A stretch of DNA of 64,000 nt from Stutzerimonas kunmingensis (lineage in GTDB: Bacteria > Pseudomonadota > Gammaproteobacteria > Pseudomonadales > Pseudomonadaceae), in contig NZ_CP090366.1 of assembly GCF_021432085.1 (NCBI RefSeq), forward strand, positions 682,001-746,000. The letters run 5' to 3'. Under the pieces are notes generated by a model. The model worked only from the letters and a program-made list of their open reading frames with translations, was not told the DNA's origin and did not search any database. The position numbers were made by a program, and so were the translations under genes. Below are positions 38,615 through 63,420 of this stretch, piece by piece; within the stretch, counting starts at the first letter, position 1; each line of letters starts with the position of its first letter.

Positions 38615-39205
38615 TCAGGCGAGGACGCAGGCGCGGTCGAAGGGCAGGCGTGGCAGGCGGTCGCGCAGCTTGCTGGCGTCGCCGTAGCCGAGGTTGATCA
38701 GCAGATTGGATTTCCAGCTCGTACCGGCGAAGAAGGCCTCGTCCAGTGCCTTGCCGTCGAAGCCGGACATCGGTCCGCAATCGAGCCCCAAAGCGCGGGC
38801 GGCGAGGATCAGGTAGCCGGCCTGCAGCGAGCTGTTGCGCAGCGCGTTCTCGGTGATCAGTGCCGGTTGCCCGGCGTACCAGCTGCGCGCGTCGGCGAAG
38901 GGGAACAGCTCGGGCAGGGTTTCCGGGAAGTCCTCGTCATAGGCGACGATCACCGTCACCGGCGCGGCCAGGGTCTTGTCCAGATTGCCCTTGGACAGGC
39001 AGGGCGCGAGCTTCTGCTTGCCCTCGGCGCTGCGCACGAAGACGAAGCGCGCCGGGCAGCTGTTGACCGCGGTCGGACCGAGGCAGATGTGTTCGTAAAG
39101 CTGCTCGAGCAGGGCGTCGGGCACCGGCTTGTCCAGCCAGGCGCTGTGGGTGCGGGCCTCGCTGAACAGCGTGGCGAGGGCATTCGAGTCGATGGGGGCG
39201 TGCAT
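38615..39205 (-). CDS. rutE: Malonic semialdehyde reductase RutE
   Basis: A 196-residue nitroreductase-fold flavoprotein proposed to reduce toxic malonic semialdehyde to 3-hydroxypropionate at the end of uracil breakdown. Start [19 protein letters not shown], with FMN/substrate segments [26 protein letters not shown] and [12 protein letters not shown]. The length equals E. coli RutE. GAGGA precedes the ATG at 39205; longer in-frame starts would overlap rutD. Confidence 0.92.
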
Positions 39206-39215
39206 GTTCGGGTCC

Positions 39216-40013
39216 TCAGGCTGCTGCAACCTGGCCGCATTGCTCGGCAAGATGGTCCAGCAGGATCTGGTTGAAGGGTTCGCTGTCGCTGACGCTGGAC
39301 GCGTGGCCACCGTAGTTCAGCAGCGCCAGCTGGGCATTGGGCAGGGCGGCGGCCAGGTGCTGCGAACGCTGCCAGGGCACCAGCATGTCGTCGCGGTTGG
39401 CGATCAGCAGGATCGGGGTGGTGATGCGCGGCAGCTCGGCCTCTATATCGAAGGCCAGCAGTGCCTCGATGCGCCGCACCAGATTCATCGTCGGCGGAAA
39501 GTGCGCCAGTGCATGGGCATCGTCGCGTGCCAGTCGCTCGCTGTTGGCCGCGATCCAGTCGGCCGGGTAGAGGAACAGCGCCTGCGCCTGCACATAGGCC
39601 GCCGGGCCGCTGTCGTGCAACAGCTTCAGGCGCACTGCGAAACAGCGGGCGCTGTGCGGGTTGGGGCTGCTCCAGGCATTGATCGGCACCAGGCTCTGCA
39701 GCAACTGCGGCCGCAGCAGGGCGATCTGCAAGCCGACCAGCCCACCGAGGGCATGGCCGATGAAGTGGCAGCGGCGGATGCCCAGGGTGTCCAGCAGCTC
39801 CAGTAACTCCACTGCCATGGACTCGATGGAATAGCCCGCCGGCAGGTTCGCCGGGCTCTTGTTGGTCCCCAGCTGATCGTAGACCAGCACCCGGTAGTCC
39901 TGGGTCAGCGCCGGCAGCTGCGGCGTCCAGAAGGCAGCTGCGCCGCCGAGGCCGGAACTGAGCACCAGGGTCGGTGCATCGGGCTCCATGCGGCCATGAA
40001 GTTCGTAGTGCAT
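39216..40013 (-). CDS. rutD: Aminoacrylate hydrolase-type protein RutD
   Basis: A 265-residue alpha/beta hydrolase. RutD speeds conversion of aminoacrylate to malonic semialdehyde and ammonia. The elbow reads [11 protein letters not shown], with Ala at the usual serine position. E. coli RutD shows the same GHALG pattern, so this is a family feature rather than a defect. The oxyanion region [11 protein letters not shown] and the late histidine GGHASS are present. A 15-bp hairpin lies in the gap to rutC. Confidence 0.9.
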
Positions 40014-40077: not shown

Positions 40078-41289
<1,212 letters not shown>

Positions 41290-41290
<1 letters not shown>

Positions 41291-42372
41291 CAGGCTGATT
41301 CCTTCAGCGCGGTGACGTGCCGACGGCTCTGCATCAGCGGCTGAATCTTCTGGCCGAAGGCTTCGACGCCCTCGAGGAAGTCATCGAAGGTCAGCATCAC
41401 GCCCTGCATGCCGGGCACCGTGGCGATCTCATCGAGCATCCGCGCGACGTTGGCGTAGGAGCCCACCAGCGTGCCCATGTTGATGTTCACCGCCGAAGTC
41501 GGATCGGCCATCTGCCGGATGTTGCTGTCAGCGCCCTTGTCGGCGGCGCCCTGCTCGCCAAGCCAGGCGATGGCTTCCTCGTCAGCGCCGGCCTTGTAGT
41601 GCTCCCACTTGGCCCGGGCGGCTTCGTCGGTTTCGTCGGCGATCACCATGAACAGCACGCAGGAGGTGACGTGGCGGCCGGTCTTCTCGGTGGCCTTGAG
41701 CAGTCGCTCGGTGGCCGGGGCGAAGGCGGTGGGGGTGTTCACGCCCTTGCCGAAGCAGAAGTTGTAGTCGGCGTACTGCGCCGAGAAGGCCATGCCGGCA
41801 TCGGATGAGCCAGCGCAGATGATCTTCATGTCCGCCTGCGGTGTCGGGCTGACGCGGCAGTCCTCCATCTGGAAGTGCTCGCCCTTGAAGTCGCTGCGGC
41901 CGGTGGCCCAGAGGTCGCGCAGCACCTGGGCGTATTCGCCGAGATACTGGTAACGCGTGCCGAAGAATTCATCGCCTGGCCACATGCCCATCTGTGTGTA
42001 TTCCGGCTTCTGCCAGCCGGTCACCAGATTCACGCCAAAGCGCCCGCCCGAGATCGAGTCGATGGTCGAGGCCATGCGCGCGACGATGGCTGGCGGCAGG
42101 GTCAGCGTTGCGGCAGTCGCGAACAGCTGGATCTTGCTGGTGACCGCCGCCAGACCCGCCATCAACGTGAAGGATTCCAGGTTGTGTTCCCAGAACTCGG
42201 TCTTACCACCGAAGCCGCGCAGCTTGATCATCGACAGCGCGAAGTCGAAGCCGTAACCCTCGGCCTTCTGCACGATGGCCTTGTTCAGCTCGAAGGTCGG
42301 CATGTACTGCGGCGCATTCTCGGAGATGAGCCAGCCGTTGTTGCCGATCGGAATGAAAACACCAACATCCAT
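41290..42372 (-). CDS. rutA: Pyrimidine monooxygenase RutA
   Basis: A 360-residue FMN-dependent luciferase-family monooxygenase that opens the uracil (or thymine) ring between N3 and C4. It starts [22 protein letters not shown], with ring-binding and flavin segments [42 protein letters not shown] and [23 protein letters not shown] lies 6 bp before ATG 42372. It is the first gene of rutABCDEF, under a sigma-54-type promoter with NtrC-like and RutR-like sites upstream. Confidence 0.95.
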
Positions 42373-42442: not shown

Positions 42443-42458
42443 AGCAGGATGCAGGCCA
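42443..42458 (-). promoter_or_regulatory. Sigma-54 (-24/-12) promoter of the rut operon
   Basis: The minus strand reads TGGCCTGCATCCTGCT. GG and GC are exactly 10 bp apart, against TGGCACG-N4-TTGCW. Predicted transcription start is near 42432, about 60 nt before rutA. Confidence 0.68.
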
Positions 42459-42511: not shown

Positions 42512-42527
42512 TGGACCATTTGGTCTG
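42512..42527. promoter_or_regulatory. RutR-type palindrome at the rut promoter
   Basis: TGGACCATTTGGTCTG against the E. coli RutR consensus TTGACCANNTGGTCAA, with the core GACCA-NN-TGGTC perfect. Its centre is 75 bp upstream of the -12 GC. RutR releases DNA when bound to uracil or thymine. Confidence 0.8.
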
Positions 42528-42534
42528 AATCAGA

Positions 42535-42549
42535 GCACCTGGTTTGTGC
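42535..42549. promoter_or_regulatory. NtrC-like enhancer site at the rut promoter
   Basis: GCACCTGGTTTGTGC fits GCAC-Y-N5-R-GTGC except at the R position. Its centre is about 97 bp upstream of the -12 GC, near -110 relative to the predicted start, a usual position for NtrC sites. Confidence 0.6.
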
Positions 42550-42608
42550 GCGGCGCACGAAGATCGTGCAGCAGTCGCTTGCTGCCTTCGTCGCTCGTGC
42601 GTCGCACG
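42546..42608. repeat. Two related GC palindromes in the rutR 5' region
   Basis: GTGCGCGGCGCAC (42546-42558) and CGTGCGTCGCACG (42596-42608) are both perfect palindromes around GTGCG/CGCAC, with centres 50 bp apart. They lie just before rutR, so a role in rutR control is possible. The first overlaps the end of the NtrC-like site. Confidence 0.5.
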
Positions 42609-42654: not shown

Positions 42655-43365
42655 GTGACAGACCAGCCCCCCGTTCCGCCCCGCAAGCGCCTTACCGCCA
42701 GCAAGACACCACGGCCAAAGGGCGCAGTCCGCGTACCGAGCGCCAGCGCCCAGGACCGCCGCCTGCGCATGATCGAAAGCAAACGCGCCAGCATTCTTCA
42801 GGCCGCGCTGGAGCTGTTCTCCCGCTTCGGCCTGCACGGCACCAGCCTCGACCAGGTGGCGACCCAGGCAGACGTCTCCAAGACCAACCTTTTGTACTAC
42901 TTCGGCAACAAGGAAGAGCTGTACACCAATGTCCTGCGGCAGCTGCTGGAGGTCTGGTTGCAGCCGCTGCAAGCATTCAGCGTCGAGCAGGACCCGGTCG
43001 AGGCGATCCGCGACTACCTGCGGGTCAAGCTCGAACTCTCCCGCGATCATCCCGCCGAATCGCGGCTGTTCTGCATGGAGATCATGCAGGGTGCGCCATT
43101 GCTGCTGGGCGAGCTGCAGCAGCCGTTGCACGATCTGGTCGAGAACAAGGTCGCCGTGATCCAGGTCTGGATCGACGACGGCAAGCTCGCACCCATCGCG
43201 CCGCATCACTTGATCTTCTCGCTCTGGGCGACCACCCAGCACTACGCCGACTTCCGCGTGCAGGTCGAGGCCGTGGCCGGCAAGACCCTGGATGATCCGG
43301 CGTTCTTCGAGGAAACGCTCAAGAGCCTGCAGTCGCTGATCCTCGATGGGGTGAGGCCGCGTTGA
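42655..43365 (+). CDS. rutR: TetR family regulator RutR
   Basis: A 236-residue repressor divergent from rutA. After a 45-residue basic, proline-rich N-terminal extension the HTH follows (GLHGTSLDQVATQADVSKTNLLYYFGNKEEL), then the RutR ligand domain (LWATTQHYADFRVQV holds the conserved Trp/Gln segment near the pyrimidine pocket). E. coli RutR has 212 residues. The GTG at 42655 is the best start but has only a weak RBS; the real start might be internal, removing part of the extension. It controls pyrimidine and related nitrogen genes by sensing uracil or thymine. Confidence 0.9.
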   Translation: MTDQPPVPPRKRLTASKTPRPKGAVRVPSASAQDRRLRMIESKRASILQAALELFSRFGLHGTSLDQVATQADVSKTNLLYYFGNKEELYTNVLRQLLEVWLQPLQAFSVEQDPVEAIRDYLRVKLELSRDHPAESRLFCMEIMQGAPLLLGELQQPLHDLVENKVAVIQVWIDDGKLAPIAPHHLIFSLWATTQHYADFRVQVEAVAGKTLDDPAFFEETLKSLQSLILDGVRPR

Positions 43366-46175: not shown

Positions 46176-46280
46176 GGTGCGGCTCTCAGGGTGGATGCCT
46201 GCAGTCTGCTGCCGAGGCGCCGCTGTCGCAATGACAAGGTTCCCACGGATCTTGCCATGCACATTCCTGGCTCAATAAAA

Positions 46281-46430: not shown

Positions 46431-46437
46431 TTACGTT

Positions 46438-47562: not shown

Positions 47563-47650
47563 GTCGGCGTGCGTGCACGACCGTGGCGTGCACGCAGCCA
47601 GCACCGACAAAGTATCGTAAGATCGCGAAAACCCATTACCTGCCGCGGAT

Positions 47651-47956: not shown

Positions 47957-48048
47957 GCTGGCTGTGAACTGCGTGTCGCTGGCGTCAGCAGCATGTGAGC
48001 CGATCGTTTTTTCCGCCGGACGTGACGGGGCACTCGCAATGGGCGCAG

Positions 48049-48846: not shown

Positions 48847-48940
48847 GGAAGGCGGCGTTCAAAGATGTCGAAAATCTACAATAGCGCAGCATGGCGGCTG
48901 CGTAGCCTTGGTTGCACATTCAAACCGAGGAGTGACCACC

Positions 48941-49399: not shown

Positions 49400-49438
49400 G
49401 GCGGATGCCTGCCGCCACTCGGCCGGAAGGTCGGGCGG

Positions 49439-49912: not shown

Positions 49913-50172
49913 TCTGCAATGCTCCTGAAGGGCCGTTTCGTCGAGGACCGCACCCTAGCCGAGGAGCGCGTCGGGAAACAAGCGTGCGAGTGGCCGGAAA
50001 AGGGCGCCGATCGAGGAGATGAACTCCATTGTCGGCTGCTGTCGAAATCAGTGTGTCCAGCGCGTTCGCTCATACGAGGAAATGAAATGTTGCAAGCCCA
50101 TCGCGGCATCCGGCTAACGCTCGGCGGCTTTGCTGTAAATTGGTCTGCCATTGGCAATGAAATCCCCCTTAC

Positions 50173-51198
50173 ATGACCCTCCTGATAGCGTTCGCTGTCT
50201 TATCCATCCTCGTTTCATTCATCTGTTCGATCCTCGAGGCCGCACTGCTCTCGCTGACACCGAGCTTTATCGCGCATCAGAAGACGACCCGTCCGAAGCT
50301 GTACGAGCGCCTGAAAGAACTGAAAGACAAGGTCGACCAGCCGCTCGCGGCCATCCTGACCTTGAATACCGTCGCCCACACCGTTGGCGCGACCGGTGTC
50401 GGTGCGCAGGTCACCGTGGTATTCGGCAACGGCTATGTCGGTATCGCCTCGGCGGTGATGACGGTGCTGATCCTGGTGCTTTCGGAAATCCTGCCCAAGA
50501 CCATCGGAGCGCGTTACTGGCGCACGCTGGCGCCTTACCTGCCGCCTCTGTTGAACGGCATGATCCTGGTGCTCAAGCCCTTCATCTACCTGTCCGACAT
50601 GATCATGCGGCTGGTCGGTGGCAAGGAGCCGGAACACGACATCCGCCAGGAGATCAAGGCGTTGACGGTGCTTGGTCGCGAGAACAAGAGCCTCGACGAG
50701 GACGAGCAGCGCGTCATCAGGAACATCCTCGACCTGCACGAGATCAAGGTCCGTGACGTCATGACACCGCGTACGGTGTGCGACTACACGTCGCCGGAGA
50801 CCAGCATTGGCGCATTCAAGGAGCAGGTTGCCGACAGCCAGTTCTCGCGCTACCCGGTGATCGGCGACAACGAGAGCCCGCTGGGTGTGGTGTTCCGCTA
50901 TGACGCCCTGTCAGCGACCGATGACGAGGCGCCGGTCTCGACGATCATGAAGCCGATGAAGGTCGCGCCGGAAATGACCAGCGTCGAAAACCTGATGACT
51001 CAGCTGCTGCATGAGCGCCAGCACATGTGCCTGGTCTACGACGAGTTCGGCAGCTGGCGCGGCCTGGTGACGCTGGAAGACATCATGGAAACCATTATCG
51101 GCCAGCCGATCATGGACGAAACGGACGACATCCCGAACATGCGCCGCTTCGCTAAGCGCCGCTGGGATCACCGTATCAAGCGCGCCCGCGACAGCTGA
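50173..51198 (+). CDS. CNNM/DUF21 transporter with CBS pair (HlyC/CorC family)
   Basis: A 341-residue inner-membrane protein. Its N-terminal DUF21 domain has three to four TM helices (LLIAFAVLSILVSFICSILEAALLSLTP; TAVMTVLILVLSEILPKTIGA-type helix) and a cytosolic CBS pair (RDVMTPRTVCDY; LVYDEFGSWRGLVTLEDIMETIIG). Family members export Mg2+ (MpfA, CorB) or Co2+. The usual CorC_HlyC end domain is absent and a basic tail (RFAKRRWDHRIKRARDS) takes its place. No clear RBS precedes ATG 50173. It ends in a strong terminator. Confidence 0.88.
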   Translation: MTLLIAFAVLSILVSFICSILEAALLSLTPSFIAHQKTTRPKLYERLKELKDKVDQPLAAILTLNTVAHTVGATGVGAQVTVVFGNGYVGIASAVMTVLILVLSEILPKTIGARYWRTLAPYLPPLLNGMILVLKPFIYLSDMIMRLVGGKEPEHDIRQEIKALTVLGRENKSLDEDEQRVIRNILDLHEIKVRDVMTPRTVCDYTSPETSIGAFKEQVADSQFSRYPVIGDNESPLGVVFRYDALSATDDEAPVSTIMKPMKVAPEMTSVENLMTQLLHERQHMCLVYDEFGSWRGLVTLEDIMETIIGQPIMDETDDIPNMRRFAKRRWDHRIKRARDS

Positions 51199-51203
51199 CC
51201 GAG

Positions 51204-51232
51204 CATGCGGAGCGGGTCTGCCGCTCCGCATG
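51204..51232. terminator. Convergent terminator hairpin
   Basis: CATGCGGAGCGG and CCGCTCCGCATG form a perfect 12-bp stem with loop GTCTG, between convergent stops at 51198 and 51246. Confidence 0.8.
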
Positions 51233-51245
51233 AAGCTGCCGGATC

Positions 51246-53474: not shown

Positions 53475-53646
53475 GCGGGCCTCGGCGGTCAGTGTGGGGG
53501 ACAGCCAGAACACGCTAGGGCCGGATTGTTACGTGGCGGTGACGGCGAGGAGGTCGAGCATTACGGGAGGAGATGCGGGTGGCATCGGTTCTGCGTTGGC
53601 GGCGCGCTGGTTATCGCGCCGCTGTCAGACGGATACCCGTGCAGGC

Positions 53647-54045
53647 TCAATCCACGGCCGGCGCCGCTTCGTACAGCTCAAGCGGCAGGCCGTCCGGGTC
53701 CGCGAAGAAGGTGAATCGGCGACCGGTGTACTCATCCAGCCGAATCGCTTCTACCGCAATGCCCTGACGCTCCAGCCATGCCTTGCACTGCGCGACGTCA
53801 TCCACAGCAAACGCCAGGTGCCGCAATCCCTGTGCCTCCGGTCGTGAAGGGCGTGGCGGCGCATCGGGAAAGGAAAACAGCTCGAGCTGAGCGCCATCCG
53901 GCAGCGCTAGGTCGAGTTTGTAGGAGCGACGCGCCTCGCGGTAATGCTCGGCAATCACCGTCAGCCCCAGCGTTTCGGTATAGAAGCGCTTCGACACGGC
54001 ATAGTCCGAGCAGATGATCGCGACGTGGTGGATGGAGCGGAGCAT
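53647..54045 (-). CDS. VOC family protein (GloA2/YaeR-like)
   Basis: A 132-residue glyoxalase/dioxygenase-fold protein: IHHVAIICSDYAVSKRFYTETLG, EAQGLRHLAFAVDDV and FFADPDGLPLELYE. It is closely similar in layout to E. coli YaeR. Metal ligand candidates are His in HHVA, His in RHLAF and Glu in LELYE. Whether it has lactoylglutathione lyase activity is unknown. The start is ATG 54045; a TTG two codons earlier is less likely. Confidence 0.87.
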   Translation of the reverse strand: MLRSIHHVAIICSDYAVSKRFYTETLGLTVIAEHYREARRSYKLDLALPDGAQLELFSFPDAPPRPSRPEAQGLRHLAFAVDDVAQCKAWLERQGIAVEAIRLDEYTGRRFTFFADPDGLPLELYEAAPAVD

Positions 54046-54114
54046 GCGCAAGGTCCAGCGGGAATTGTCGGGTAGAGACTGTCAGGAAAGGCGAGCGTTC
54101 GACGAGCCGGATCG

Positions 54115-55041
54115 TTACATCTCGTTCGGTTCTCTGCCCTGGAGGCCCAGCGCAGTCACCGTCAATAGAATCAGCCCCCTGCCCAGGATCTGCAGCGCTG
54201 CCAGGCTCTCATCCAGTACCACGACGCCGAAGAGCGAAGCGGTTACCGGCTCGACCATCGCCACGATGGACGCCACAGCCGGTGCGGTATGTCTGAGCCC
54301 GACGATGTAGAGAATGAAGGACAGCCCTGCGCCGACCACACCCAGAACGATGAACAGTGGCCAACTCGGGGCGCCTGGCACCGACGCTGCCTATTGCGCG
54401 TCGCTCATCGAGGCGAGTATGCCAACGAGCACCGCGAACGCTATGACGAGAATCGCCTGAGGACTGCCGTGGGGCGCCGCGTACTTGAACGCAACAATGA
54501 AAGCCGCATAGGACAAACCTGATAGCAGGCCGGCTCCGGCTGCCACGAGCGTAATGTCGCTCGCGCCGACGTCATGGATACCGGTCAGCAAGATGACGCC
54601 GAGCATCACCGTTGCGATTGCTGCCCATTTGAACAGCGTCGGCCTTTCGAGTCCGAACGCGAAGGATGCCAGGTAGACGAACACCGGCGCTGAGTACATC
54701 AAGGTCGCTGCCACCGCAACGCTGCCCTCGGCGATGCTCAAGAAGTAAAAAGAGAAGTTGCCCGCTACGCCGATGCCGGCGATTACCGACCAGAACCACA
54801 GCCTGTGGCTCGTCATTCCACTGCCGGCCGGGCGTAATGCCAGCCAGATGAGCACGCACACGAGGCCGATCAGGCCCCGGTAGAGCGAGACTACGGTGGG
54901 ACTCCAGCCCTCGCTAATGAGGATGCCGCCTATCCCACCCGATAGTCCCCAGCAAAGTGCCGCAAGCACCACCAATAGCGCGCCCAGGCTTGCCGGTTTC
55001 CCCTGAGTTCTTCCATTTGTTCGCGGCGAGCGCTGCGCCAT
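54115..55041 (-). pseudogene. EamA/DMT family permease interrupted by an in-frame amber codon
   Basis: A ten-TM drug/metabolite transporter in two pieces in the same frame. The first 216 codons (LAALCWGLSGGIGGILISEG; first EamA repeat and part of the second) end in TAG at 54393-54391. The frame then continues without a shift through AASVPGAPSWPLFIVLGV to the second repeat's end (VASIVAMVEPVTASLFGVVVLDES) and stops at 54115. A single substitution (for example from TGG or CAG) would restore one roughly 308-residue protein. It is either a recent pseudogene, a sequencing error or read-through. The fold up to the stop is intact. Confidence 0.85.
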
Positions 55042-55105
55042 AAGGTCATCCTATGCCTTCGAGAAAGCCGCAAGGGACCAACCTGCAGCGCCCGCAGGGG
55101 CGCAT

Positions 55106-55150
55106 GACGAGCAGGTCGGTAACCGCGCGGTCACCGGCCTGCTACTCGTC
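55106..55150 (-). terminator. Hairpin at the end of the PQQ dehydrogenase gene
   Basis: GACGAGCAGG (55106-55115) pairs with CCTGCTACTCGTC (55138-55150), with further inner pairing GGT/ACC. It overlaps the dehydrogenase stop codon and lies before the EamA gene. Confidence 0.45.
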
Positions 55151-56441
55151 ACTGGTTGCGCGTCACCCGCCAGACCACATTGGCCAGGTCGTCCGCGACG
55201 ATCAGCGCACCGCTCGGGTCGACGGTCACGCCCACCGGTCGGCCGCGGGTTTTGCCGTCCTCGCGGAAGCCGGTCATGAAGTCGATGGGTTCGCCTGCCG
55301 GGCGGCCATCGCGGAACGGCACGAAGACCACCTTGTAGCCGGACGGATCTTCGCGGTTCCAGCTGCCGTGCTCGCCGACGAACGCACCTTCGGCGAACTG
55401 CGCGCCCATGACGTCCGAGGAAAAGTCCAGGCCTAGTGCGGCGACGTGGGCGCCCAGTGCGTAGTCCGGCGTGATCGCCTGCTTGACCTTGTCCGGGTCC
55501 TGCGGGCGCACGCGGTCGTCGACGTTCTGGCCCCAGTAGCTGTAGGGCCAGCCATAGAAACCACCTTCCTGCACCGAGGTCAGGTAGTCCGGCACCAGAT
55601 TTTCGCCCAGCTCGTCGCGCTCGTTGACCACCGACCACAGCTGGTCGGTGCCGGGCAGTATCGCCAGGGCCGTGGGGTTGCGTAGGCCGGTTGCGTAGGG
55701 TTTGTAAGCGCCGGTTTCGGTGTTGATCTGCCAGATCATGGCGCGGTCGACCTCGGCTTCCATCCCGCGCTCGGTGATGTTGCTGTTCGAGCCGATGCCG
55801 ACGTAGAGGTACTGGCCATCGGGGCTGATGGTCATCGCCTTGGTCCAGTGGTGGTTGATCTCCGAGGGCAGGTCAACGACCTTGGTCGGCGGACCGCTGG
55901 CTTCGGTCTGACCTTCCTCGTATTTGAAACGCACCAGTTCGTCCTGGTTGGCGACGTAGAGGTTGCCGTCGTGGAAGGCCAGTCCATAGGGGGCATTGAG
56001 TTCATCGGCGAAGACGTTCTGCATTTCGTAGCGGCCGTCGCCATCGGCGTCTCTCAGCAAGGTCAGCCGGTTACCGCTTTTGACCGACGTGTTGCCCTGC
56101 GCCTTGATGTAGCCGGCGATCACGTCTTTCGGTTTCAGCTTGGCTGCATTGCCGCCACGACCTTCGGCCACAAGGATGTCGCCGTTGGGCAGCACCAGGG
56201 TCTGTCGCGGGATCTGCAGGTCGGTGGCTATCGCCGTCACGCTGTAGTTCTCCGGCACCGAGGGGGTCGCATCGCCCCAAGGCGTTGGCTCGGCGATCTT
56301 CATGCTCGGCAGCAGCCCGCGGTCGGGTTCCGGCAGTTTGGGGTTGGCACCGTACAGGCTGGCGGCGCCCTGCTCATCGCCACCACAGGCGCTTAGCAAC
56401 AACGCGATGGTCAGCGCGGAGAGTGCATTGGTGTGCTTCAT
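55149..56441 (-). CDS. PQQ-dependent sugar dehydrogenase (sorbosone dehydrogenase-like lipoprotein)
   Basis: A 430-residue exported lipoprotein. The lipobox is LLLSACGGDE (Cys about 19). It is a six-bladed propeller of the soluble glucose/L-sorbosone dehydrogenase type: PRQTLVLPNGDILVAEGRGG (blade 1), NAPYGLAFHDGNLYVAN, HHWTKAMTISPDGQYLYVGIG, ATGLRNPTALAILPGTDQLW, GFYGWPYSYWGQN and HGSWNREDPSGYKVVFVPF. These carry the conserved His and Arg near PQQ. It oxidises aldoses in the periplasm if PQQ is bound; no pqq genes are in the window. It overlaps the DUF2231 gene by 4 bp. Confidence 0.9.
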   Translation of the reverse strand: MKHTNALSALTIALLLSACGGDEQGAASLYGANPKLPEPDRGLLPSMKIAEPTPWGDATPSVPENYSVTAIATDLQIPRQTLVLPNGDILVAEGRGGNAAKLKPKDVIAGYIKAQGNTSVKSGNRLTLLRDADGDGRYEMQNVFADELNAPYGLAFHDGNLYVANQDELVRFKYEEGQTEASGPPTKVVDLPSEINHHWTKAMTISPDGQYLYVGIGSNSNITERGMEAEVDRAMIWQINTETGAYKPYATGLRNPTALAILPGTDQLWSVVNERDELGENLVPDYLTSVQEGGFYGWPYSYWGQNVDDRVRPQDPDKVKQAITPDYALGAHVAALGLDFSSDVMGAQFAEGAFVGEHGSWNREDPSGYKVVFVPFRDGRPAGEPIDFMTGFREDGKTRGRPVGVTVDPSGALIVADDLANVVWRVTRNQ

Positions 56442-56887
56442 GCTTCACCTCCGTCTCGCAGGTTGGAAAGGCCGATCCACGCGGCGGCGCAGGCCAGCAG
56501 CGTGACGATCACCGAGAGCACCAGGCCGGTCGGCATGACTGCCCAGGCATCCTTGGCGTGCTGCAGTGCATTGATGAAGCCGAGTACCCAGGTCGCCACG
56601 AGCAACAGCAGATAGATCAGCGGTCGCCCTGCCCTGTGCTTGGCCTTGATCAAGTTGACGACCGCGAACAGGATCGCCAGTCCGCAGAACACCAGCCCGC
56701 CGGCGATCAGCCAGGAGGCGAAGTTGCTCCATTGAATCTGGTAGCTGCGAAAGTAGGCGACGTCGCTCAGCAGTGCGCCGAGAAACAACGGCACGCTCCC
56801 GGCCAGTAGGATCGAGTGCAGCGGATGCGGCACATGGCGGGAAACGCTGTGAGTGGTTTCTGTGGTGCGGTGGGTAATGACGGTCAC
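56438..56887 (-). CDS. DUF2231 membrane protein
   Basis: A 149-residue inner-membrane protein with four TM helices: PHPLHSILLAGSVPLFLGALLSDVAYF, WLIAGGLVFCGLAILFAVVNLI, LIYLLLLVATWVLGFINAL and LVLSVIVTLLACAAAWIGL. The conserved HPLH motif near TM1 could bind haem or a quinone. Its stop overlaps the dehydrogenase start (ATGA), so it may be an electron-transfer partner anchoring that dehydrogenase to the respiratory chain. This partnership is an inference from gene order. Confidence 0.83.
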   Translation of the reverse strand: MTVITHRTTETTHSVSRHVPHPLHSILLAGSVPLFLGALLSDVAYFRSYQIQWSNFASWLIAGGLVFCGLAILFAVVNLIKAKHRAGRPLIYLLLLVATWVLGFINALQHAKDAWAVMPTGLVLSVIVTLLACAAAWIGLSNLRDGGEA

Positions 56888-57046
56888 AAGGAACTCCTCA
56901 TTGCTTTCGACCAGCCCTGCGCGGCGCGGATCGCTCTGAAGGTGCTTAAGAGGGGATCGTGTCGTCGGGCCGTTAGTTCACTCCTATCGCTGAGCGGCGG
57001 GGCTGACCTCGGCTGCTGCAGCCCTCGCCCGCTTTTCGTGCTTCAT

Positions 57047-57061
57047 GCACAAACCAAGTGC
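57047..57061. promoter_or_regulatory. NtrC-like enhancer site of the oxygenase/ABC operon
   Basis: GCACAAACCAAGTGC, both halves GCAC and GTGC perfect at the NtrC spacing. Its centre is 96.5 bp upstream of the -12 GC. The wider gap 56888-57268 holds no gene, only this and the next two sites. Confidence 0.6.
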
Positions 57062-57068
57062 TCCGAAC

Positions 57069-57084
57069 CGGACCATTTGATCCG
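57069..57084. promoter_or_regulatory. RutR-like palindrome upstream of the oxygenase/ABC operon
   Basis: CGGACCATTTGATCCG shares 13 of 16 bases with the palindrome at the rut promoter, including the 10-mer GGACCATTTG. It lies 22.5 bp (centre to centre) after the NtrC-like site, exactly as at rut. Confidence 0.68.
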
Positions 57085-57136
57085 TTATTTCCCCGCCATA
57101 ACGCTAAGCCACTGATCCACAAGCGAATCGATCCGG

Positions 57137-57152
57137 TGGCACGCTTTCTGCT
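57137..57152 (+). promoter_or_regulatory. Sigma-54 (-24/-12) promoter of the oxygenase/ABC operon
   Basis: TGGCACGCTTTCTGCT: the -24 half TGGCACG is perfect, the -12 half CTGC differs by one base, and GG and GC are 10 bp apart. Predicted transcription start is near 57163, about 105 nt before the first gene. Confidence 0.82.
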
Positions 57153-57268: not shown

Positions 57269-58279
57269 ATGACTCTGCAATACGTTCCCATCATCGACCT
57301 GGCGCCGTATTTCGCCGGTACGCCGGAGGGCAAGGCCCAGGTGGCCAAGGCCGTGGACCAGGCCTGTCGCGACATCGGCTTTCTGGTCATCACCAATCAT
57401 CAGATCCCCAGTGAACTGATCGAGCGCGTGTCGCGGCTGACGCGGCAGTTCTTCGCCTTGCCGTTGCCGGAAAAGCGCAAGGTCGACCGGCCCAGCCCGG
57501 AAATGGTGCGCGGCTACAGCGCCATCGCCGAGGAGAGTCTGTCGTACTCGCTGGAAGAGGCGTCACCGGGTGATCTCAAGGAATCCTTTTCCATCGGCCC
57601 CAGCGATGTGCCGGCTGAGGACTACTACCGCTGCGCCGCTGCCGGCCCGCATTTCGCGCCGAACGTCTGGCCCACCGGCATCGCGGGTTTCGAGCAAACC
57701 TATCGCGAATACTTCGCTGCCATGAGCGAGCTGTCGCAGTCGCTGATGCGCATCTTCGCCCTGGCACTGGAGCTGCCGGAAACCTTCTTCGACGACAAGA
57801 TCGACAAGCACATCAGCATGTTCCGCAGCCTCAGCTATCCGGACGTGAAGGGCGCGGTCGAACCCGGACAGTTGCGCGCCAGTGCCCACACCGATTACGG
57901 CAGCCTGACCATCGTCAAGCCGGACAACGCGCTGGGCGGTTTGCAGGCACGCAACCGTCAGGGCGAATGGGTAGACGTGCCCTACGTGGAGAACGGCTTC
58001 GCAGTGAACATCGGCGACCTGATGATGCAGTGGACCAACGATCAGTGGATTTCCACGCTGCATCGGGTGATCAACCCGCCTGAGGACAGCCCTGCCGACA
58101 ACGGGCGACAGTCACTGGTGTTCTTCCACCAGCCCAACTACGACGCGCTGATCGAGTGCCTGCCGGGATGCCTAGCCGCGGGCGAAGCGCCACGCCACGC
58201 GCCGGTCACCTCCGGCGACAACCTGCTCTCCAAGTTCGTCAAGCAGACCACCTTCGGCAAAGGCCTGGAGGTCGCATGA
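57269..58279 (+). CDS. 2-oxoglutarate/Fe(II) oxygenase, isopenicillin-N-synthase-like
   Basis: A 336-residue cytoplasmic oxygenase: an N-terminal DIOX_N domain (PIIDLAPYFAGTP; DIGFLVITNHQIP) and a C-terminal jelly-roll. Iron ligands are His207, Asp209 (SAHTDYGSLTIV) and His265 (STLHRVINPP); 2-oxoglutarate binding is by Arg280 and Ser282 (GRQS). Plants and fungi use this fold for hydroxylations, including thymine 7-hydroxylase; bacterial members are mostly uncharacterised. It is the first gene of a six-gene operon with a nucleoside-type importer. ATG 57269 (MTLQYVPIIDL) has GAGGAG 10 bp upstream. Confidence 0.9.
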   Translation: MTLQYVPIIDLAPYFAGTPEGKAQVAKAVDQACRDIGFLVITNHQIPSELIERVSRLTRQFFALPLPEKRKVDRPSPEMVRGYSAIAEESLSYSLEEASPGDLKESFSIGPSDVPAEDYYRCAAAGPHFAPNVWPTGIAGFEQTYREYFAAMSELSQSLMRIFALALELPETFFDDKIDKHISMFRSLSYPDVKGAVEPGQLRASAHTDYGSLTIVKPDNALGGLQARNRQGEWVDVPYVENGFAVNIGDLMMQWTNDQWISTLHRVINPPEDSPADNGRQSLVFFHQPNYDALIECLPGCLAAGEAPRHAPVTSGDNLLSKFVKQTTFGKGLEVA

Positions 58280-58662
58280 GCACGCTTTCCTACGTCAACG
58301 TTTTCGCCCGCGACATCGAAGCGCTGAGCGGCTTCTACCGCGAGCTGTTCGGCTTCCGGAACATTCCCGAGATCGCCTCGCCGATCTTTCGCGGGTTGGA
58401 TACCGGCAAGAGCTGCATCGGCTTCAACGCGCCGGAAGCCTATGAACTGCTGCATCTGGACGAATTCGCCGACACCCGCGGCTGCAAGTTCCTCCTGAAC
58501 ATCGACGTCGATTCGAAAGAGGAGGTCGAGCGGCTGGTACCCATCGCCGTCGCCATGGGCGCGCGGCTGATCAAGGCGCCCTACGAGACCTATTACCACT
58601 GGTATCAGGCGGTGCTGCTGGACCCGGAAGACAACGTGTTTCGCATCAACCACATGCTTTGA
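58276..58662 (+). CDS. VOC family protein of the oxygenase/ABC operon
   Basis: A 128-residue vicinal-oxygen-chelate protein: YVNVFARDIEALSGFYRELFGF, GFNAPEAYELLHLDEF and VLLDPEDNVFRINHML. Its beta-alpha-beta-beta-beta repeats are complete. The usual metal-binding His and Glu are replaced in places (N at the first ligand), so it may bind a ligand without catalysis. Its ATG overlaps the oxygenase stop (ATGA), so the two are made together and may act on the same compound. Confidence 0.85.
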   Translation: MSTLSYVNVFARDIEALSGFYRELFGFRNIPEIASPIFRGLDTGKSCIGFNAPEAYELLHLDEFADTRGCKFLLNIDVDSKEEVERLVPIAVAMGARLIKAPYETYYHWYQAVLLDPEDNVFRINHML

Positions 58663-58687: not shown

Positions 58688-59791
58688 ATGCTCAATCAGA
58701 TGAAACGGACCTTGTGTGCGGCGGTGGCTCTCGGCCTGGCGACGACTGTTGGCGCCGCCTCGGCGAAGGAAGGGCAAGGGCTGACCCTCGATAAACCGGC
58801 GAAGATCGCCATGCTCTACATCAGCCCGCGCAATGACGGTGGCTGGACCCAGGCCTTCGACGAGGCGCGGCAGAAGCTCGAAGCCGAGCTGGATACCAAG
58901 ATCCAGTACGTCGAAAGCGTGCCGGAGAACGCTTCATCGATCCGCCCGGCAGTGGACCGGCTGATCCAGCGCGGCGCCAACGTCATCATCGGCACCGCCT
59001 TCGGTTATTCCGACACCTTCAAGGAGCTGGCCGCCAAGTATCCGGACGTGGCCTTCCTCAACGGCTCGGGCACCACCAACAGCGCCAACCTCGAATCCTT
59101 CTACGGCCGCACCTACGAAAGCCAGTACCTGTGCGGCATGGCCGCCGGCGCGGCGTCGAAGACCGGCAAGCTCGGTTTCGTCGCGGCCAACCCCTTCGGT
59201 CAGGTGAACTGGACGGTCAACGCCTTCGCCCTCGGCGCCCAGGCGATCAACCCCGACGCCACCGTCACCGTGGTCTACACCGGCGCCTGGAACGATCCGG
59301 TCAAGGAGCGCGCCGCGGCGATGGCGCTGATCGATGCCGGCGCCGACGTGCTCGGCCAGCACGTCGACAGCCCGACGCCGCAGATCGTCGCCCAGGAGCG
59401 CGGTGTGCATGGCACCGGTCACCACCGCGACATGCGCGAATTTGCCCCGGACGCCACCGTCTGCTCGTCGGTCTGGGTGTGGGACAGGTTCCTCGCGCCG
59501 GAGCTGAAGAAGATCAGCGCCGGCAACTGGACGCCGCCGGAGAACGGCGCGCTGCTGTCCATGGCCGAAGGCGGTACCGATGCAGCCTGCTGTGGCCCGG
59601 CGGTCTCCGAAGCGGACAAGGCGAAGATCATGGCCGCCCGCGAAGCGTTGCTCAAAGGCGAGATGCAGATCTACGCCGGCCCGATGCTCGACCGTGACGG
59701 CACCGAGCGCATCGCCGCCGGTGAGGTGATGGCCGACCCAGCGCTATGGCAGATGGACTGGTTCGTCAAGGGAGTGACCACCCAGCAATGA
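58688..59791 (+). CDS. BMP/PnrA family ABC transporter substrate-binding protein
   Basis: A 367-residue periplasmic receptor. The signal peptide is LCAAVALGLATTVGAASA (cleavage near 29). The Bmp fold follows: PAKIAMLYISPRNDGGWTQAFD, NVIIGTAFGYSDTFKELAAKYPDVAFLNGSG, GFVAANPFGQVNWTVNAFALGAQ and GADVLGQHVDSP. BMP/PnrA proteins bind nucleosides or related bases; the aromatic in GGWTQ takes the stacking place. The start is ATG 58688 with AGGAAG upstream; the ATPase gene overlaps its stop. Confidence 0.9.
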   Translation: MLNQMKRTLCAAVALGLATTVGAASAKEGQGLTLDKPAKIAMLYISPRNDGGWTQAFDEARQKLEAELDTKIQYVESVPENASSIRPAVDRLIQRGANVIIGTAFGYSDTFKELAAKYPDVAFLNGSGTTNSANLESFYGRTYESQYLCGMAAGAASKTGKLGFVAANPFGQVNWTVNAFALGAQAINPDATVTVVYTGAWNDPVKERAAAMALIDAGADVLGQHVDSPTPQIVAQERGVHGTGHHRDMREFAPDATVCSSVWVWDRFLAPELKKISAGNWTPPENGALLSMAEGGTDAACCGPAVSEADKAKIMAAREALLKGEMQIYAGPMLDRDGTERIAAGEVMADPALWQMDWFVKGVTTQQ

Positions 59792-61365
59792 GCAACCTCA
59801 ACGCGATCCAGCTTTCCGGGGTCAGCAAGTCGTTCGACGGCTTCATGGCCCTGTCCCAGGCGGACTTTACCGCCAGGTGGGGCGAGGTCCATGCGCTGCT
59901 CGGCGAGAACGGCGCGGGCAAGTCGTCGCTGATGAACATCGCCGCCGGCCTCTACGCACCGGAGAGCGGATCGCTGTTGATCAACGACAATGCGGTGCGG
60001 CTCAGCGGCCCGCGGGATGCCAGCCGCTACCACATCGGCATGGTTCATCAGCACTTCAAGCTGGTGAAGCCCTTCACCGTGGCCGAGAACATCCAGCTGG
60101 CGCTGCCCGAGGGGCCGGGCAACCACGCCTTCTCGGGCAGCCATCGCCAGCGCCTGGCGGCTTTGGAGCAGCGGATCAGCGACAAGGCGGCCGAGCTGGG
60201 TTTCAGCATCGACCCGCGCAAGATCACCGAGTCGCTTTCGGTGGCCGAGCAGCAGCGGGTGGAGATTCTCAAGGTGCTGCTGGCCGGCGCGCGCATCCTG
60301 ATCCTCGACGAGCCGACGGCGGTACTGACCGACGGGGAAGCCGAACGCCTGCTGGAAACGGTGCGCGCGTTCGCCCGCCAGGGCGCGGCGGTGATCCTGG
60401 TCACCCACAAGATGAGCGACGTGAAACGCTTCGCCGACCGCGTCACCGTGATGCGGGGCGGTCGCACCATCCAGACCCTCGACCCGCAGACGGTATCGGT
60501 GCCCGAGCTGGTGCGCCTGACCGTGGGTGATTCCGCGCCGGCCAGCGAGTATCAGCCGGCGACACCGGGTGAGGTGCGGCTGCAGGTGCGCGATTTGCGT
60601 TCGACCGGGGCAGGCGGACACGGCGCGCTAAATGGCGTGACGCTGAGCCTACGTGCCGGCGAGATCTATGGTGTCGCTGGAGTCGGAGGCAACGGCCAGA
60701 GCGAACTGGCCAACGTGCTGATGGGGTTGCCGGAGCCCTGCCAGGGCACGCTGGACTTGGCGGGCTTCGGCGACTTGCGCCGGGCCAGCCCGGAACAGCG
60801 GCGCCAGCTGCGCATCGCTGCAATCCCTGCTGACCGCTACGGCACCGCGCTGGCTGGCGAGCTCTCGGTGGCCGAGAACTTCGGTGTCGGGCAGATCCAC
60901 AGCGGGCGCTATGGCTCGTTTTTCAATCTGCGGCGCAAGCGTCTGGAGGCCGATGCTGCTGAGGCGGTGGCCGGGTTCGACGTGCAGGGCGTGCGCTCGC
61001 TGAAGCAGAAGGCCGCGCTGCTTTCCGGCGGCAACGCGCAGAAACTGGTGATCGCTCGCGAGTTCTCCCGCGATCCGCAACTGGTGCTGGTACACAGCCC
61101 CAGTCGCGGGCTGGACGTACGCGCCACCGCCGCCGTGCATGCCCGCCTGCGTGCAGCGCGGGATGCCGGCGCAGCGGTGCTGGTGATCAGCGAAGACCTC
61201 GATGAGGTGCTGGCCCTGGCCGATCGCATCGGCGTGATGAGCGGCGGGCGCATCGTCGCCGAATTCGACCGGCCCGCGGATCGCCAGGCCATTGGTAGGG
61301 CGATGGTCAGTCATGGGGAGCTGAGCCATGGCGAGTTGAATCTAGAAGGGGTAAACCATGAATGA
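59788..61365 (+). CDS. ABC transporter ATPase, duplicated nucleotide-binding domains
   Basis: A 525-residue sugar/nucleoside-class ATPase. The first domain is canonical: Walker A GENGAGKSS, signature LSVAEQQRVEILK, Walker B ILILDEPTAVLT. The second is altered: the Walker A position reads GVGGNGQSE, the signature LSGGNAQKLVIARE is intact, and Walker B LVLVHSPSRGLDV lacks the usual acid pair. Such asymmetry is normal for the NupA/YufO group. It overlaps both neighbours (4 and 8 bp). Confidence 0.92.
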   Translation: MSNLNAIQLSGVSKSFDGFMALSQADFTARWGEVHALLGENGAGKSSLMNIAAGLYAPESGSLLINDNAVRLSGPRDASRYHIGMVHQHFKLVKPFTVAENIQLALPEGPGNHAFSGSHRQRLAALEQRISDKAAELGFSIDPRKITESLSVAEQQRVEILKVLLAGARILILDEPTAVLTDGEAERLLETVRAFARQGAAVILVTHKMSDVKRFADRVTVMRGGRTIQTLDPQTVSVPELVRLTVGDSAPASEYQPATPGEVRLQVRDLRSTGAGGHGALNGVTLSLRAGEIYGVAGVGGNGQSELANVLMGLPEPCQGTLDLAGFGDLRRASPEQRRQLRIAAIPADRYGTALAGELSVAENFGVGQIHSGRYGSFFNLRRKRLEADAAEAVAGFDVQGVRSLKQKAALLSGGNAQKLVIAREFSRDPQLVLVHSPSRGLDVRATAAVHARLRAARDAGAAVLVISEDLDEVLALADRIGVMSGGRIVAEFDRPADRQAIGRAMVSHGELSHGELNLEGVNHE

Positions 61366-62494
61366 ACAGGTACGCCCCGTGATGCTCGAGCAGGCCACGC
61401 AGGCGGCCGAGCGCCCGAAACAGCCGCTGCTGTCGCGGCGTTACGCACTGGAGATCCGCCAGCAACTGGCCTGGCATTGGCAGGCTGCGATCATCGGGCT
61501 CGCCCTGTTGCTGGGGCTGGGCATCTCCGCCGCAATCCTGATCGCCGCTGGCGTACCGGCCGGTGAGCTGCTCAATGAGTTTGTCATCCTCACGGTATTC
61601 GATGCACAGAGCCTGAAAGCGGTCTTGTTTCAGGCATCGCCGATGATCCTCGTCGGCTTGGCCGGCTGCATGGCCTTCCGCGCCAGGTTCTGGAACCTCG
61701 GGCTTGAGGGTCAGATGATCTGGGGCGCCATCGGTGCCACGGCGGTCTCACTGTTCGAGGTCGGCCCTCCCGCGCTGCGCCTGCCGCTGATGCTGGCCGC
61801 GGCCGTTTTCTGCGGCCTGCTCTGGGCGCTGGCGCCGGTGCTGCTCAAGCTGCGGCTGAAGGTCAACGAGATCATCTCGACACTGATGCTCAACTACCTG
61901 GCGATCAATTTCCTGCTGCACCTGCTCTACGGCAGCTGGAAAGACCCGAAGAGTTCGTTTCCCTATTCGCCGCAGTTTCAGCCGTTCGAGCGCCTGCCCG
62001 AACTGCTCGAGGGCATCAGTGCCGCGGTGCCGCTGGCGGTGGTCGTCGCGTTGCTGGCGCTGTGGTTTCTCGGCATTTCCCGCGCCGGGTTGTACCTGCG
62101 CTTCGTCGATGCCAACCCCCGGGTGGCGGGCGCGGTGGGCGTGCCGGTGCAGAAGATGATCATCGGCACGGTGCTGATCTCTGGCGCCATGGCCGGGATC
62201 GCCGGGTTTCTGGTCACGGCGGGGCAGGAGGGGCGGCTGACCCAGTCGTTCTATCAGGGCTACGGCTTCTCCGGCATCCTGATTGCCTTTCTCGCGCGCA
62301 ACAATCCGCTGGCCGCGTTAGTGGTAGCACTGCTGATGGCGATGCTCTTCGTCGCCGGGCGCAGCTTGCAGGTGTTCTACCAGATCCCCTTTTCCATGGT
62401 GCAGCTCATCCAGGCAATCCTGGTGATCTGCGTCGCCTCCTCGGATTTCTTTATCCGCCACCGTATCCGCCGCGTTCAGGGAGGCGAAAGCTGA
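61358..62494 (+). CDS. ABC transporter permease (BPD_transp_2), subunit 1
   Basis: A 378-residue permease with about ten TM segments after a cytosolic start of about 40 residues. Family features: GLAGCMAFRARFWNLGLEGQMIWGA (EAA-like region), LRLKVNEIISTLMLNYLAINFL and GAMAGIAGFLVTAGQEGRL. It pairs with the next gene as a heterodimeric channel of a BMP-type nucleoside importer. It overlaps the ATPase gene by 8 bp and the next permease by 1 bp. Confidence 0.9.
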   Translation: MNEQVRPVMLEQATQAAERPKQPLLSRRYALEIRQQLAWHWQAAIIGLALLLGLGISAAILIAAGVPAGELLNEFVILTVFDAQSLKAVLFQASPMILVGLAGCMAFRARFWNLGLEGQMIWGAIGATAVSLFEVGPPALRLPLMLAAAVFCGLLWALAPVLLKLRLKVNEIISTLMLNYLAINFLLHLLYGSWKDPKSSFPYSPQFQPFERLPELLEGISAAVPLAVVVALLALWFLGISRAGLYLRFVDANPRVAGAVGVPVQKMIIGTVLISGAMAGIAGFLVTAGQEGRLTQSFYQGYGFSGILIAFLARNNPLAALVVALLMAMLFVAGRSLQVFYQIPFSMVQLIQAILVICVASSDFFIRHRIRRVQGGES

Positions 62495-63420
62495 TGGACA
62501 TGATCGCCAACTGGCTCGGCAACACACCGGACTTCGCCGTACCTTTTGCCCTCGCGGCGCTGGGGCTGATTCTTACGGAACGCGCCGGCGTGCTGGCCCT
62601 CGGCGCCGAAGGGCTGATGTTGGTCGGTGCGTTGGCCGGTATCGGCGCGCAGCTGGCTTACGGCACGCCGGGCATCTCCCTATTCCTGGCCATGGTTGCA
62701 GCAGCGGTGGTGTCGTTGCTGTTCGCACTGATGGTACTGGTGCTGCGGATCAACCAGGTGATCGCAGGGTTGGCGCTGGTGTTCTTCTGCCAGGGGCTGA
62801 CCGGGCTGCTCGGCACGCTGCTGGACTGGACCAACAAGCCGGTGAAGGGATTGGGCGCGGTCGAGCTGTGGCCGCTGTCGGAGTCGCCGCTCGTGGGCAA
62901 AGTCTTCGTGCAGAACCCGCTGGTGTTCATGACGCCGCTGATCTTTCTCGCCGTGGTCTGGTTTCTTACCCGCACCACCACCGGTCTGCGGATGCGTGCG
63001 GTGGGTGAAAACCCCCAGGCGGCCGACGCAGCGGGCATTTCCGTGCTCGGTTATCGGCTGGTGGCGATTCTCGCTGGCTCCGCGCTGATAGGCCTTGCGG
63101 GCGGCTATATCTCGGTGCTCAGCACCAAGTTGTGGATTGCCGACATGACTGGCGGCCGCGGCTGGATCGCCGTGGCGCTGGTGATCTTCGCCCGCTGGTC
63201 ACCCTGGAAGGCCCTGGCCGGTGCGCTGCTGTTCGGCTGCATCGAGGCGCTGATCCCGCATCTGGCCGCTGCCGGGGTGCGTCTGCCGCAGTACTTCGTG
63301 CTGATGACGCCCTACGCCGTGACCCTGGCGGTGATGATCTGGGTTGCCAGCGGCAAGAACGTTTCCGGCAATCAGCCGGGCGCACTGGGTATTCCCTTTA
63401 TCCGCGAGGAGCGCCGCTGA
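62494..63420 (+). CDS. ABC transporter permease (BPD_transp_2), subunit 2
   Basis: A 308-residue permease with about nine TM segments: LILTERAGVLALGAEGLMLVGAL, LRINQVIAGLALVFFCQGLTG, GENPQAADAAGISVLGYRL and GRGWIAVALVIFARWSPWKAL. ATG 62494 shares its A with the preceding stop. The open frame extends upstream of 62494, but that part is antisense-free overlap with the first permease and is not this gene. It is the last gene of the operon and ends inside a hairpin. Confidence 0.9.
   Translation: MDMIANWLGNTPDFAVPFALAALGLILTERAGVLALGAEGLMLVGALAGIGAQLAYGTPGISLFLAMVAAAVVSLLFALMVLVLRINQVIAGLALVFFCQGLTGLLGTLLDWTNKPVKGLGAVELWPLSESPLVGKVFVQNPLVFMTPLIFLAVVWFLTRTTTGLRMRAVGENPQAADAAGISVLGYRLVAILAGSALIGLAGGYISVLSTKLWIADMTGGRGWIAVALVIFARWSPWKALAGALLFGCIEALIPHLAAAGVRLPQYFVLMTPYAVTLAVMIWVASGKNVSGNQPGALGIPFIREERR

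Follow-up and report, generated by a model that had tools for sequence, protein, structure and literature searches.

A putative NtrC/RutR/sigma-54 promoter module shared by the rut operon and an oxygenase/ABC transporter operon in Stutzerimonas and its relatives

INTRODUCTION

NtrC and RutR sites have been reported at the promoter of the Escherichia coli rut operon (PMC10891134, available in part), and in genomic SELEX, E. coli rut showed signals for both sigma-54 and NtrC (PMC8743547, available in part). RutR regulons were predicted comparatively in RegPrecise for 68 genomes of 13 taxa, with ∼10.9 genes per genome and taxon-specific substitutions in the RutR motif (PMC5343134, available in part). 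With uracil, thymine, or cytosine as the nitrogen source, an ntrC mutant of Pseudomonas stutzeri A1501 is impaired; the word rut does not occur in the main text of that paper (PMC8443478).

We analyzed a 64,000-nucleotide stretch of Stutzerimonas kunmingensis DNA (GCF_021432085.1, contig NZ_CP090366.1, positions 682,001 to 746,000), hereafter the window. A first-pass annotation had proposed that its rut operon and a second operon, encoding an oxygenase, a VOC protein, and a BMP-type ABC transporter, share a composite promoter made of an NtrC-like site, a RutR-like palindrome, and a sigma-54 element. On promoter sequence and gene context, we consider it highly probable that this composite is a real sigma-54 promoter module that unites rut and the nucleobase-type ABC transporter operon in one NtrC/RutR regulon.

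RESULTS

Architecture of the two promoters

Upon re-reading, all motif sequences and centers previously given for both promoters proved correct (Table 1). The recomputed distance from NtrC-like site to palindrome is 22.5 bp at either promoter; that from palindrome to the −12 GC is 74.0 bp before the oxygenase gene and 75.0 bp before rutA. Read with transcription, the proximal NtrC-like sites have the same orientation and are equal at 14 of 15 bases (GCACAAACCAAGTGC and GCACAAACCAGGTGC), and the spacers are also similar (GTGCTCCGAACCGGACCA and GTGCTCTGATTCAGACCA). The agreement of 13 of 16 bases claimed for the palindromes requires that the rut site be read against transcription; with transcription, 11 of 16 bases agree. 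The RutR operator consensus is the palindrome TTGACCANNTGGTCAA, which, counted by eye, the rut site matches at 11 of 14 positions and the site of the oxygenase promoter at 9.

Both promoters have a second NtrC-like site 20 bp upstream of the proximal one, which the first-pass annotation did not list, so that the oxygenase promoter carries tandem NtrC-like sites ∼100 bp upstream of −12. Among 33 transporter-class sites, NtrC-like pairs at a start-to-start distance of 20 bp have a mean score of 5.7 of 8, versus 1.2 to 3.2 at other distances between 15 and 30 bp; the distal site scores ≥6 at 20 or 21 bp in 25 of the 33. A single TGG-N9-TGC lies at an offset of 80 to 92 in 34/34 transporter-class sites.

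Table 1. Promoter elements and genes of the two operons, in window positions
Feature	Position	Strand	Remarks
Oxygenase promoter, distal (second) NtrC-like site GCCCGCTTTTCGTGC	57027..57041	+	center 57034; 7/8 consensus bases
Oxygenase promoter, proximal NtrC-like site GCACAAACCAAGTGC	57047..57061	+	center 57054; no base change in 29/29 aligned genus copies
Oxygenase promoter, RutR-like palindrome CGGACCATTTGATCCG	57069..57084	+	center 57076.5; promoter-proximal half GATC
Oxygenase promoter, sigma-54 −24/−12 element TGGCACGCTTTCTGCT	57137..57152	+	−12 GC center 57150.5
2OG-Fe(II) oxygenase	57269..58279	+	DIOX_N, 2OG-FeII_Oxy; best PDB relative thymine dioxygenase 5c3p
VOC/glyoxalase-like protein	58276..58662	+	relative of 2rbb
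BMP (PnrA-like) substrate-binding protein	58688..59791	+	relative of AtzT 6pi5; start codon putative
ABC transporter ATPase	59788..61365	+	
ABC transporter permease 1	61358..62494	+	
ABC transporter permease 2	62494..63420	+	
rut promoter, distal NtrC-like site GCACGATCTTCGTGC	42555..42569	−	second site, 20 bp farther upstream
rut promoter, proximal NtrC-like site GCACAAACCAGGTGC (forward-strand letters GCACCTGGTTTGTGC)	42535..42549	−	center 42542
rut promoter, RutR-like palindrome CAGACCAAATGGTCCA	42512..42527	−	center 42519.5; promoter-proximal half GGTC
rut promoter, sigma-54 −24/−12 element TGGCCTGCATCCTGCT	42443..42458	−	−12 GC center 42444.5
rutA	41290..42372	−	TIGR03612, 713.7 bits (cutoff 498.3)
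rutB	40544..41290	−	TIGR03614, above cutoff
rutD	39216..40013	−	TIGR03611, above cutoff
rutE-type malonic semialdehyde reductase	38615..39205	−	PRK05365, above cutoff
rutR, divergent from rutA	42655..43365	+	YcdC-like C-terminal domain; GTG start putative

The rutR product scores 291.3 against a cutoff of 230 with PRK15008 and 337.3, below the cutoff of 368, with TIGR03613; its TetR_C_3 YcdC-like domain is matched at 5.7e−58. The two operons lie ∼16 kb apart in this genome, and ∼14 kb of unrelated genes (MFS, AraC-type regulators, old yellow enzyme, CNNM/CBS, phytase-like) fill positions 43400 to 57000 between rutR and the oxygenase operon. In several relatives, the rut and transporter promoters are 1 to 2 kb apart. 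Downstream of the window (L008, 12785 to 15356; G000:C1, ∼751 to 754 kb) are cytosine-deaminase-like and NCS1-type permease genes, named from their translations, which may feed uracil into rut.

The combination of motifs is rare in the genome

To locate the composite in the 4.78-Mb genome, a pattern of 22 fixed bases and one R was used, with up to 3 mismatches. It occurs at exactly two places, both with 0 mismatches, and the reversed control at none. By itself, GACCANNTGRTC is not enriched in the genome (38+31 matches versus 33+33 in the control), and GCACN7GTGC is moderately enriched (156 versus 60). Because each motif alone is common, single motifs prove little, and the evidence lies in their combination. 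We rejected either motif alone as evidence, given that GACCANNTGRTC is unenriched and that 12 other GCACN7GTGC places are without a clear NtrC target. These 12 were read among the matches listed, which cover ∼3 Mb of the genome; they include one −24/−12-like match, on a single strand, and no NtrC target that we recognized. Canonical NtrC targets may lie beyond the ∼3 Mb covered. Four GCACN7GTGC places (L313, L317, L319, and L320) look like copies of one repeated element because they share their neighboring reading frames.

The commonness of each motif is what could be said for a chance similarity of the two promoters. Against it stand the count of two composites versus none in the control and the conservation of the composite in the genus and beyond. 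We therefore reject chance, which we regard as extremely improbable.

Conservation within the genus

Loss of the motifs or of their spacing from orthologous promoters had been named as an observation that would speak against a common regulon. We looked for it within the genus and did not see it: the composite is kept, with some base changes, before 29/29 aligned oxygenase copies and 28/28 aligned rutA copies. The sequence GCACAAACCAAGTGCTC is invariant in all 29 oxygenase promoters, in which the RutR-like and sigma-54 elements hold the same place and show some base changes (e.g., TGGCACAGATTCTGCT in L036 and L043). The 28 rut promoters retain all three elements, with changes such as GCGCAAACC in L058 and GCACAAAACGAGTGC in L072; L076, which is 41% identical and has a stop codon, and the second copies of G005 are not part of this alignment.

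Among 56 genomes of the genus, 28 contain both the oxygenase and rutA, 27 contain neither, none has rutA alone, and the only one with the oxygenase alone is 71% complete (Fisher P = 7.6e−15, uncorrected for linkage or, like the other counts given here, for relatedness). Where a single contig carries both genes (22 genomes), they are separated by 2.9 to 26.9 kb. Two operon-less genomes contain relics: G033 has the whole promoter before the deleted operon, and G012 has the NtrC-like and RutR-like sites but no sigma-54 element.

By locus, the relic promoters, in which the composite or part of it survives, are at L124 (5051 to 5600) and L125 (5321 to 5356), where the transporter operon is deleted; L124 retains small pieces of the operon's first and last genes. 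In G163 (L280, 861 to 1945), the rutA match is split into two overlapping pieces in different frames, and the composite upstream is intact.

Conservation beyond the genus

The scan of related genomes that the first-pass annotation had suggested showed that the composite recurs in the family. With ≤2 mismatches, it matched 78 of 398 genomes in 6 of 19 genera (8 control matches); thus, most of the sampled family genomes are without it. When 84,980 named genomes were scanned for exact matches, 109 stretches resulted. The 80 stretches listed of these 109 contain 92 sites; by title, 74 of the 80 belong to Pseudomonas, Stutzerimonas, or Marinobacter and one to Variovorax. Within this listed set, 84 of the 92 sites lie ≤450 bp from rutA (50 sites), the oxygenase gene (17), or the BMP gene (17), and all 84 have a single TGG-N9-TGC at an offset of 79 to 92 from the GCAC start. 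The offset is 89 to 92 in 81 sites and 79 to 80, about one turn shorter, in the other 3. The eight remaining sites comprise two before RutG-like genes (L134, where the gene was named from its translation, and L185), two at locus edges (L131 and L166), one at a decayed locus (L171), and three judged to be chance matches (L146, from Paenibacillus, L192, and L202). We also considered a wider regulon in the family and rejected it; a looser pattern that includes the sigma-54 element matched 66 of 368 genomes, and beyond the known kinds, the 11 places listed were judged unrelated (4 control matches).

Gammaproteobacterial rutA loci from other families were sampled by protein family. In 15 of these 17 loci, the NtrC-like site that scores best (6 to 8 of 8 bases) is 22.5 to 23.5 or 42.5 to 44.5 bp from the RutR-like center; in the remaining 2, it is at other distances. 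Over these 17 loci, the mean NtrC-like score is 3.88 at 22.5 bp, above the maximum of 500 shuffles (3.35), and 3.12 at 42.5 bp, below that maximum. A position at 9.5 bp scores as high as that at 22.5 bp, perhaps because the scored segment there overlaps the RutR site. The alphaproteobacterial and more distant rutA promoters that we inspected have RutR-like palindromes in some cases and no good NtrC-like site at the fixed place; these promoters appear to be of another kind.

A second layout occurs at four oxygenase promoters (L122, L275, L276, and L281), in loci where rut and the oxygenase operon share a strand. In these promoters, the −24 element (e.g., TGGCACAGCGGTTGC, TGGCATGTCGGTTGC) is immediately preceded by a RutR-like box (e.g., ACCAAATGGTCCA, TCCATTTGGTCAA), and GCAC/GTGC-type sequences lie farther upstream. 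All three kinds of site are present again, but not in the composite geometry. The fixed phase attributed to the hybrid has exceptions at these four promoters and in the sigma-54 element, which shifts by about one turn. A single long rut-oxygenase operon in L122 and L276 was considered and dropped, as the oxygenase gene of each is preceded by a separate promoter of this second layout. A second RutR-like gene is found beside the oxygenase gene in L275 and L281.

One operator base separates the two operons

The promoter-proximal half of the RutR-like site is GGTC at 50/50 rutA sites and GATC at 34/34 oxygenase or BMP sites of the exact scan, whose pattern admitted only A or G at this base, so that no other letter could appear among the 50 + 34. 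The genus sets show the same division, with GGTC in 28/28 rut promoters and GATC in 29/29 oxygenase promoters. With the letter left free, the mapped loci of our G-numbered genomes, which partly repeat the loci of the named genomes, have GGTC at 23 rutA promoters; GATC at 8 oxygenase promoters and GTTC at 1 (L126); GATC at 7 BMP promoters; and GATC at the relic L124. Since GATC breaks the palindrome, RutR would bind it more weakly, and we infer that the transporter operon would be easier to derepress than rut. On the other hand, GGTC and not GATC is found in the copies that precede RutG-like genes and tsx; because these genes also encode importers, the idea that the base is a threshold or general uptake code is weakened. 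The GTTC of L126 likewise speaks against a threshold code. The single base that distinguishes rut operators from BMP transporter operators is directly testable as a threshold setting.

A difference that is unvarying in 84 sites could also mean that the module is real and that one of its sites is read by another regulator, either a TetR paralog at the transporter GATC or another enhancer-binding protein at GCAC. A second RutR-like gene beside the oxygenase in G062 and G194 agrees with the former, and the AAACCAA core of the 15-bp site, more conserved than expected for NtrC alone, agrees with the latter. However, this core varies at some sites (e.g., GCACTGAGCGAGTGC and GCACAATACAGGTGC), and the same spacing is found in E. 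coli rut, a promoter with reported NtrC and RutR sites. We consider a different regulator improbable and retain NtrC and RutR as the presumed pair.

The transporter as the probable core partner

The composite stands directly before the BMP gene, with no oxygenase or VOC gene between, at seven mapped loci (L108 to L111, L115, L116, and L278). For this reason, going by the mapped loci themselves, we take the transporter to be the core partner of rut and the oxygenase to be optional.

Of 20 mapped regions, 8 have rutR enclosed by two inverted copies of the composite; in five more (L117 to L120 and L126), the rut-side copy has GACT for GACC and appears in a looser listing. Inverted copies that flank rutR raise the question of whether the promoters are alike only through copying, by inverted duplication around rutR or by gene conversion, without shared control. 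The 7-nt spacer points the same way, agreeing at 4.55 of 7 positions within genomes versus 4.15 in shuffled pairs (P = 0.012, 22 distinct pairs, uncorrected for relatedness), a weak comparison, with the rut/transporter split set by the operator base itself. Yet the composite is kept across several genera with variable spacers, 0/84 sites cross the GGTC/GATC boundary, and the sigma-54 elements vary in letters and hardly in place. Copying without shared control is very improbable, and shared control remains our preferred reading.

Among 27 chosen genomes, a close RutG is encoded only in G345 and G267 (∼620 bits), directly behind the composite; the curated RutG cutoff of 758.65 bits is not reached by the E. 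coli control either, and other RutG matches are <280 bits. A BMP ortholog is present in 22 of the 27 and missing from G345, G267, G012, G033, and G229. Close RutG and the BMP transporter thus never occur together in these 27 genomes, and G229 has the rut composite and neither of the two. From this nonoverlap, we infer that the ABC transporter takes the place of RutG. G267 has a further copy of the composite (L274, G267:C9:70000-80000, site 3324-3359), with one mismatch and a sigma-54 element at offset 89, in front of tsx-cdd-nupC-deoA-NUP, a nucleoside route made up of tsx, cytidine deaminase, nupC, thymidine phosphorylase, and a NUP gene. The rutA promoters of G345 and G267 (L272 and L273) have a GACCATMTGGTC palindrome and a TGGC-type element; by eye, the NtrC-like sequence is >22.5 bp upstream.

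Likely substrates

The best PDB match of the oxygenase is the fungal thymine dioxygenase 5c3p (2.4e−51), and the next distinct molecule is matched at 1.8e−46. Read from the alignment, with an apparent numbering offset of 2, the oxygenase shares with fungal thymine 7-hydroxylase (5c3p; PMC4787775, available in part) the metal/2OG ligands His214, Asp216, His271, Arg286, and Ser288 and the critical residues Arg190, Tyr217, and Phe292. Because 6jyv, a probable oxidoreductase of unstated function, has the three critical residues as well, they are not specific. Asn87, Glu122, Asn294, Tyr324, and Arg328 are not kept and correspond to Val, Ser (by realignment), Gln, Asn, and Lys, respectively; on these grounds, we rejected the identification of the oxygenase as a thymine 7-hydroxylase.

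AtzT, the closest solved relative of the BMP protein, binds guanine at 0.11 μM, thymine only at 620 μM, and uracil at 1,600 μM (PMC6834077, available in part). In the BMP protein, the aromatic sandwich of AtzT (Tyr45/Trp194) is present as Trp and Trp, and the guanine site is changed (Ser97 to Ala, Glu165 to Gln, Asn218 to His, and Asn220 to Asp; alignment reading with an apparent offset of 5 against the residues given in the available part of PMC6834077).

A pyrimidine or modified pyrimidine is the likely substrate of the operon, and the transporter cluster probably imports uracil-like bases. We give a smaller but appreciable chance to the alternative that the operon belongs to the regulon and imports and oxidizes another heterocycle, such as a purine or a methylated or modified base. 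The strong preference of AtzT for guanine over thymine and uracil (PMC6834077, available in part) and the conserved thymine 7-hydroxylase residues that the oxygenase lacks would fit such a substrate. The altered guanine-contacting residues, the presence of RutG behind the composite instead in two genomes, and the match of the oxygenase to a thymine dioxygenase argue for a pyrimidine.

DISCUSSION

The first-pass annotation had read the two operons as one nitrogen- and pyrimidine-responsive NtrC/RutR/sigma-54 regulon. Conservation in the genus and recurrence in the family make this the best reading, in which the proteins presumed to bind are NtrC and RutR. Phosphorylated NtrC would bind the tandem GCAC-N7-GTGC-like sites, at approximately −109 and −129 if the −12 GC is placed at −12.5, and would activate sigma-54 RNA polymerase under nitrogen shortage. 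RutR would bind the palindrome 22.5 bp downstream of the proximal NtrC-like center, between enhancer and promoter, and would block activation until released by uracil or thymine. Given the position of the operator, next to the enhancer and upstream of where the polymerase usually binds, simple occlusion of the sigma-54 polymerase is unlikely; RutR might instead block NtrC assembly or looping. The resulting logic would be nitrogen limited AND pyrimidine present, which suggests that both clusters are switched on together only when nitrogen is short and bases are available.

A more elaborate version of this regulon is doubtful. In it, the composite would be a portable cassette, with NtrC and RutR sites about two helical turns apart, RutR as an anti-activator, and GGTC and GATC setting two inducer thresholds. 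It would front whichever pyrimidine importer is at hand, be it ABC, RutG-like, or a nucleoside operon, and the optional oxygenase would be a bacterial equivalent of fungal thymine 7-hydroxylase, oxidizing the C5-methyl group of thymine. The GGTC of the RutG and tsx copies lowers its odds.

If the simpler regulon holds, an oxygenase/ABC transporter operon found in several genera of Pseudomonadaceae is assigned to pyrimidine nitrogen scavenging, and its inducers are predicted. The promoters would offer a natural system for studying how activation is blocked by a TetR-type repressor whose site lies between an NtrC enhancer and a sigma-54 promoter; among the many natural examples, the enhancer-operator distance is constant and the position of the sigma-54 element differs by about one helical turn.

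Comparison with known systems

The impaired growth of the A1501 ntrC mutant on pyrimidines fits the regulon, A1501 being a strain other than the one whose genome was analyzed here. Among titles and abstract openings, we found none that reports the oxygenase/transporter operon; most subscription journals and the RegPrecise pages were outside this search. Part of the finding may already have been predicted, because RegPrecise covers RutR regulons in 68 genomes, and a transporter operon may already be listed there. The available part of that work (PMC5343134) is silent on the NtrC-RutR spacing and on a half-site difference between operons.

The atzRSTUVW and atzDGEHF operons of Pseudomonas sp. 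ADP offer a parallel (PMC6834077, available in part). There, too, a BMP-type ABC operon is divergent from a catabolic operon for a nitrogen heterocycle, and sigma-54 promoters are induced by nitrogen starvation. Unlike the system described here, the regulator is the cyanuric acid-responsive AtzR and not RutR, the substrates are others, and the pocket residues differ.

A further likeness is to the E. coli rutABCDEFG promoter, which has NtrC-like, RutR, and sigma-54 sites in the same order (GCATGTTTTATGTGC, TGACCGTTTAGTCCA, and TGGCATCCGCTTTGC), a divergent rutR, and a further upstream NtrC-like site. With the sites as read in the sequence, the distance between NtrC and RutR centers is an identical 22.5 bp. 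In contrast, the distance from RutR to −12 is 86 bp, 11 to 12 bp or about one helical turn longer, and the proximal half-site is AGTC. The hybrid of enhancer and RutR site claimed for the window is not unique to this lineage. Because E. coli rut has the same 22.5-bp spacing, we regard the promoter type as old and known and the second operon as its new member; what we take to be new is the second use of a rut-type promoter, at a transporter operon.
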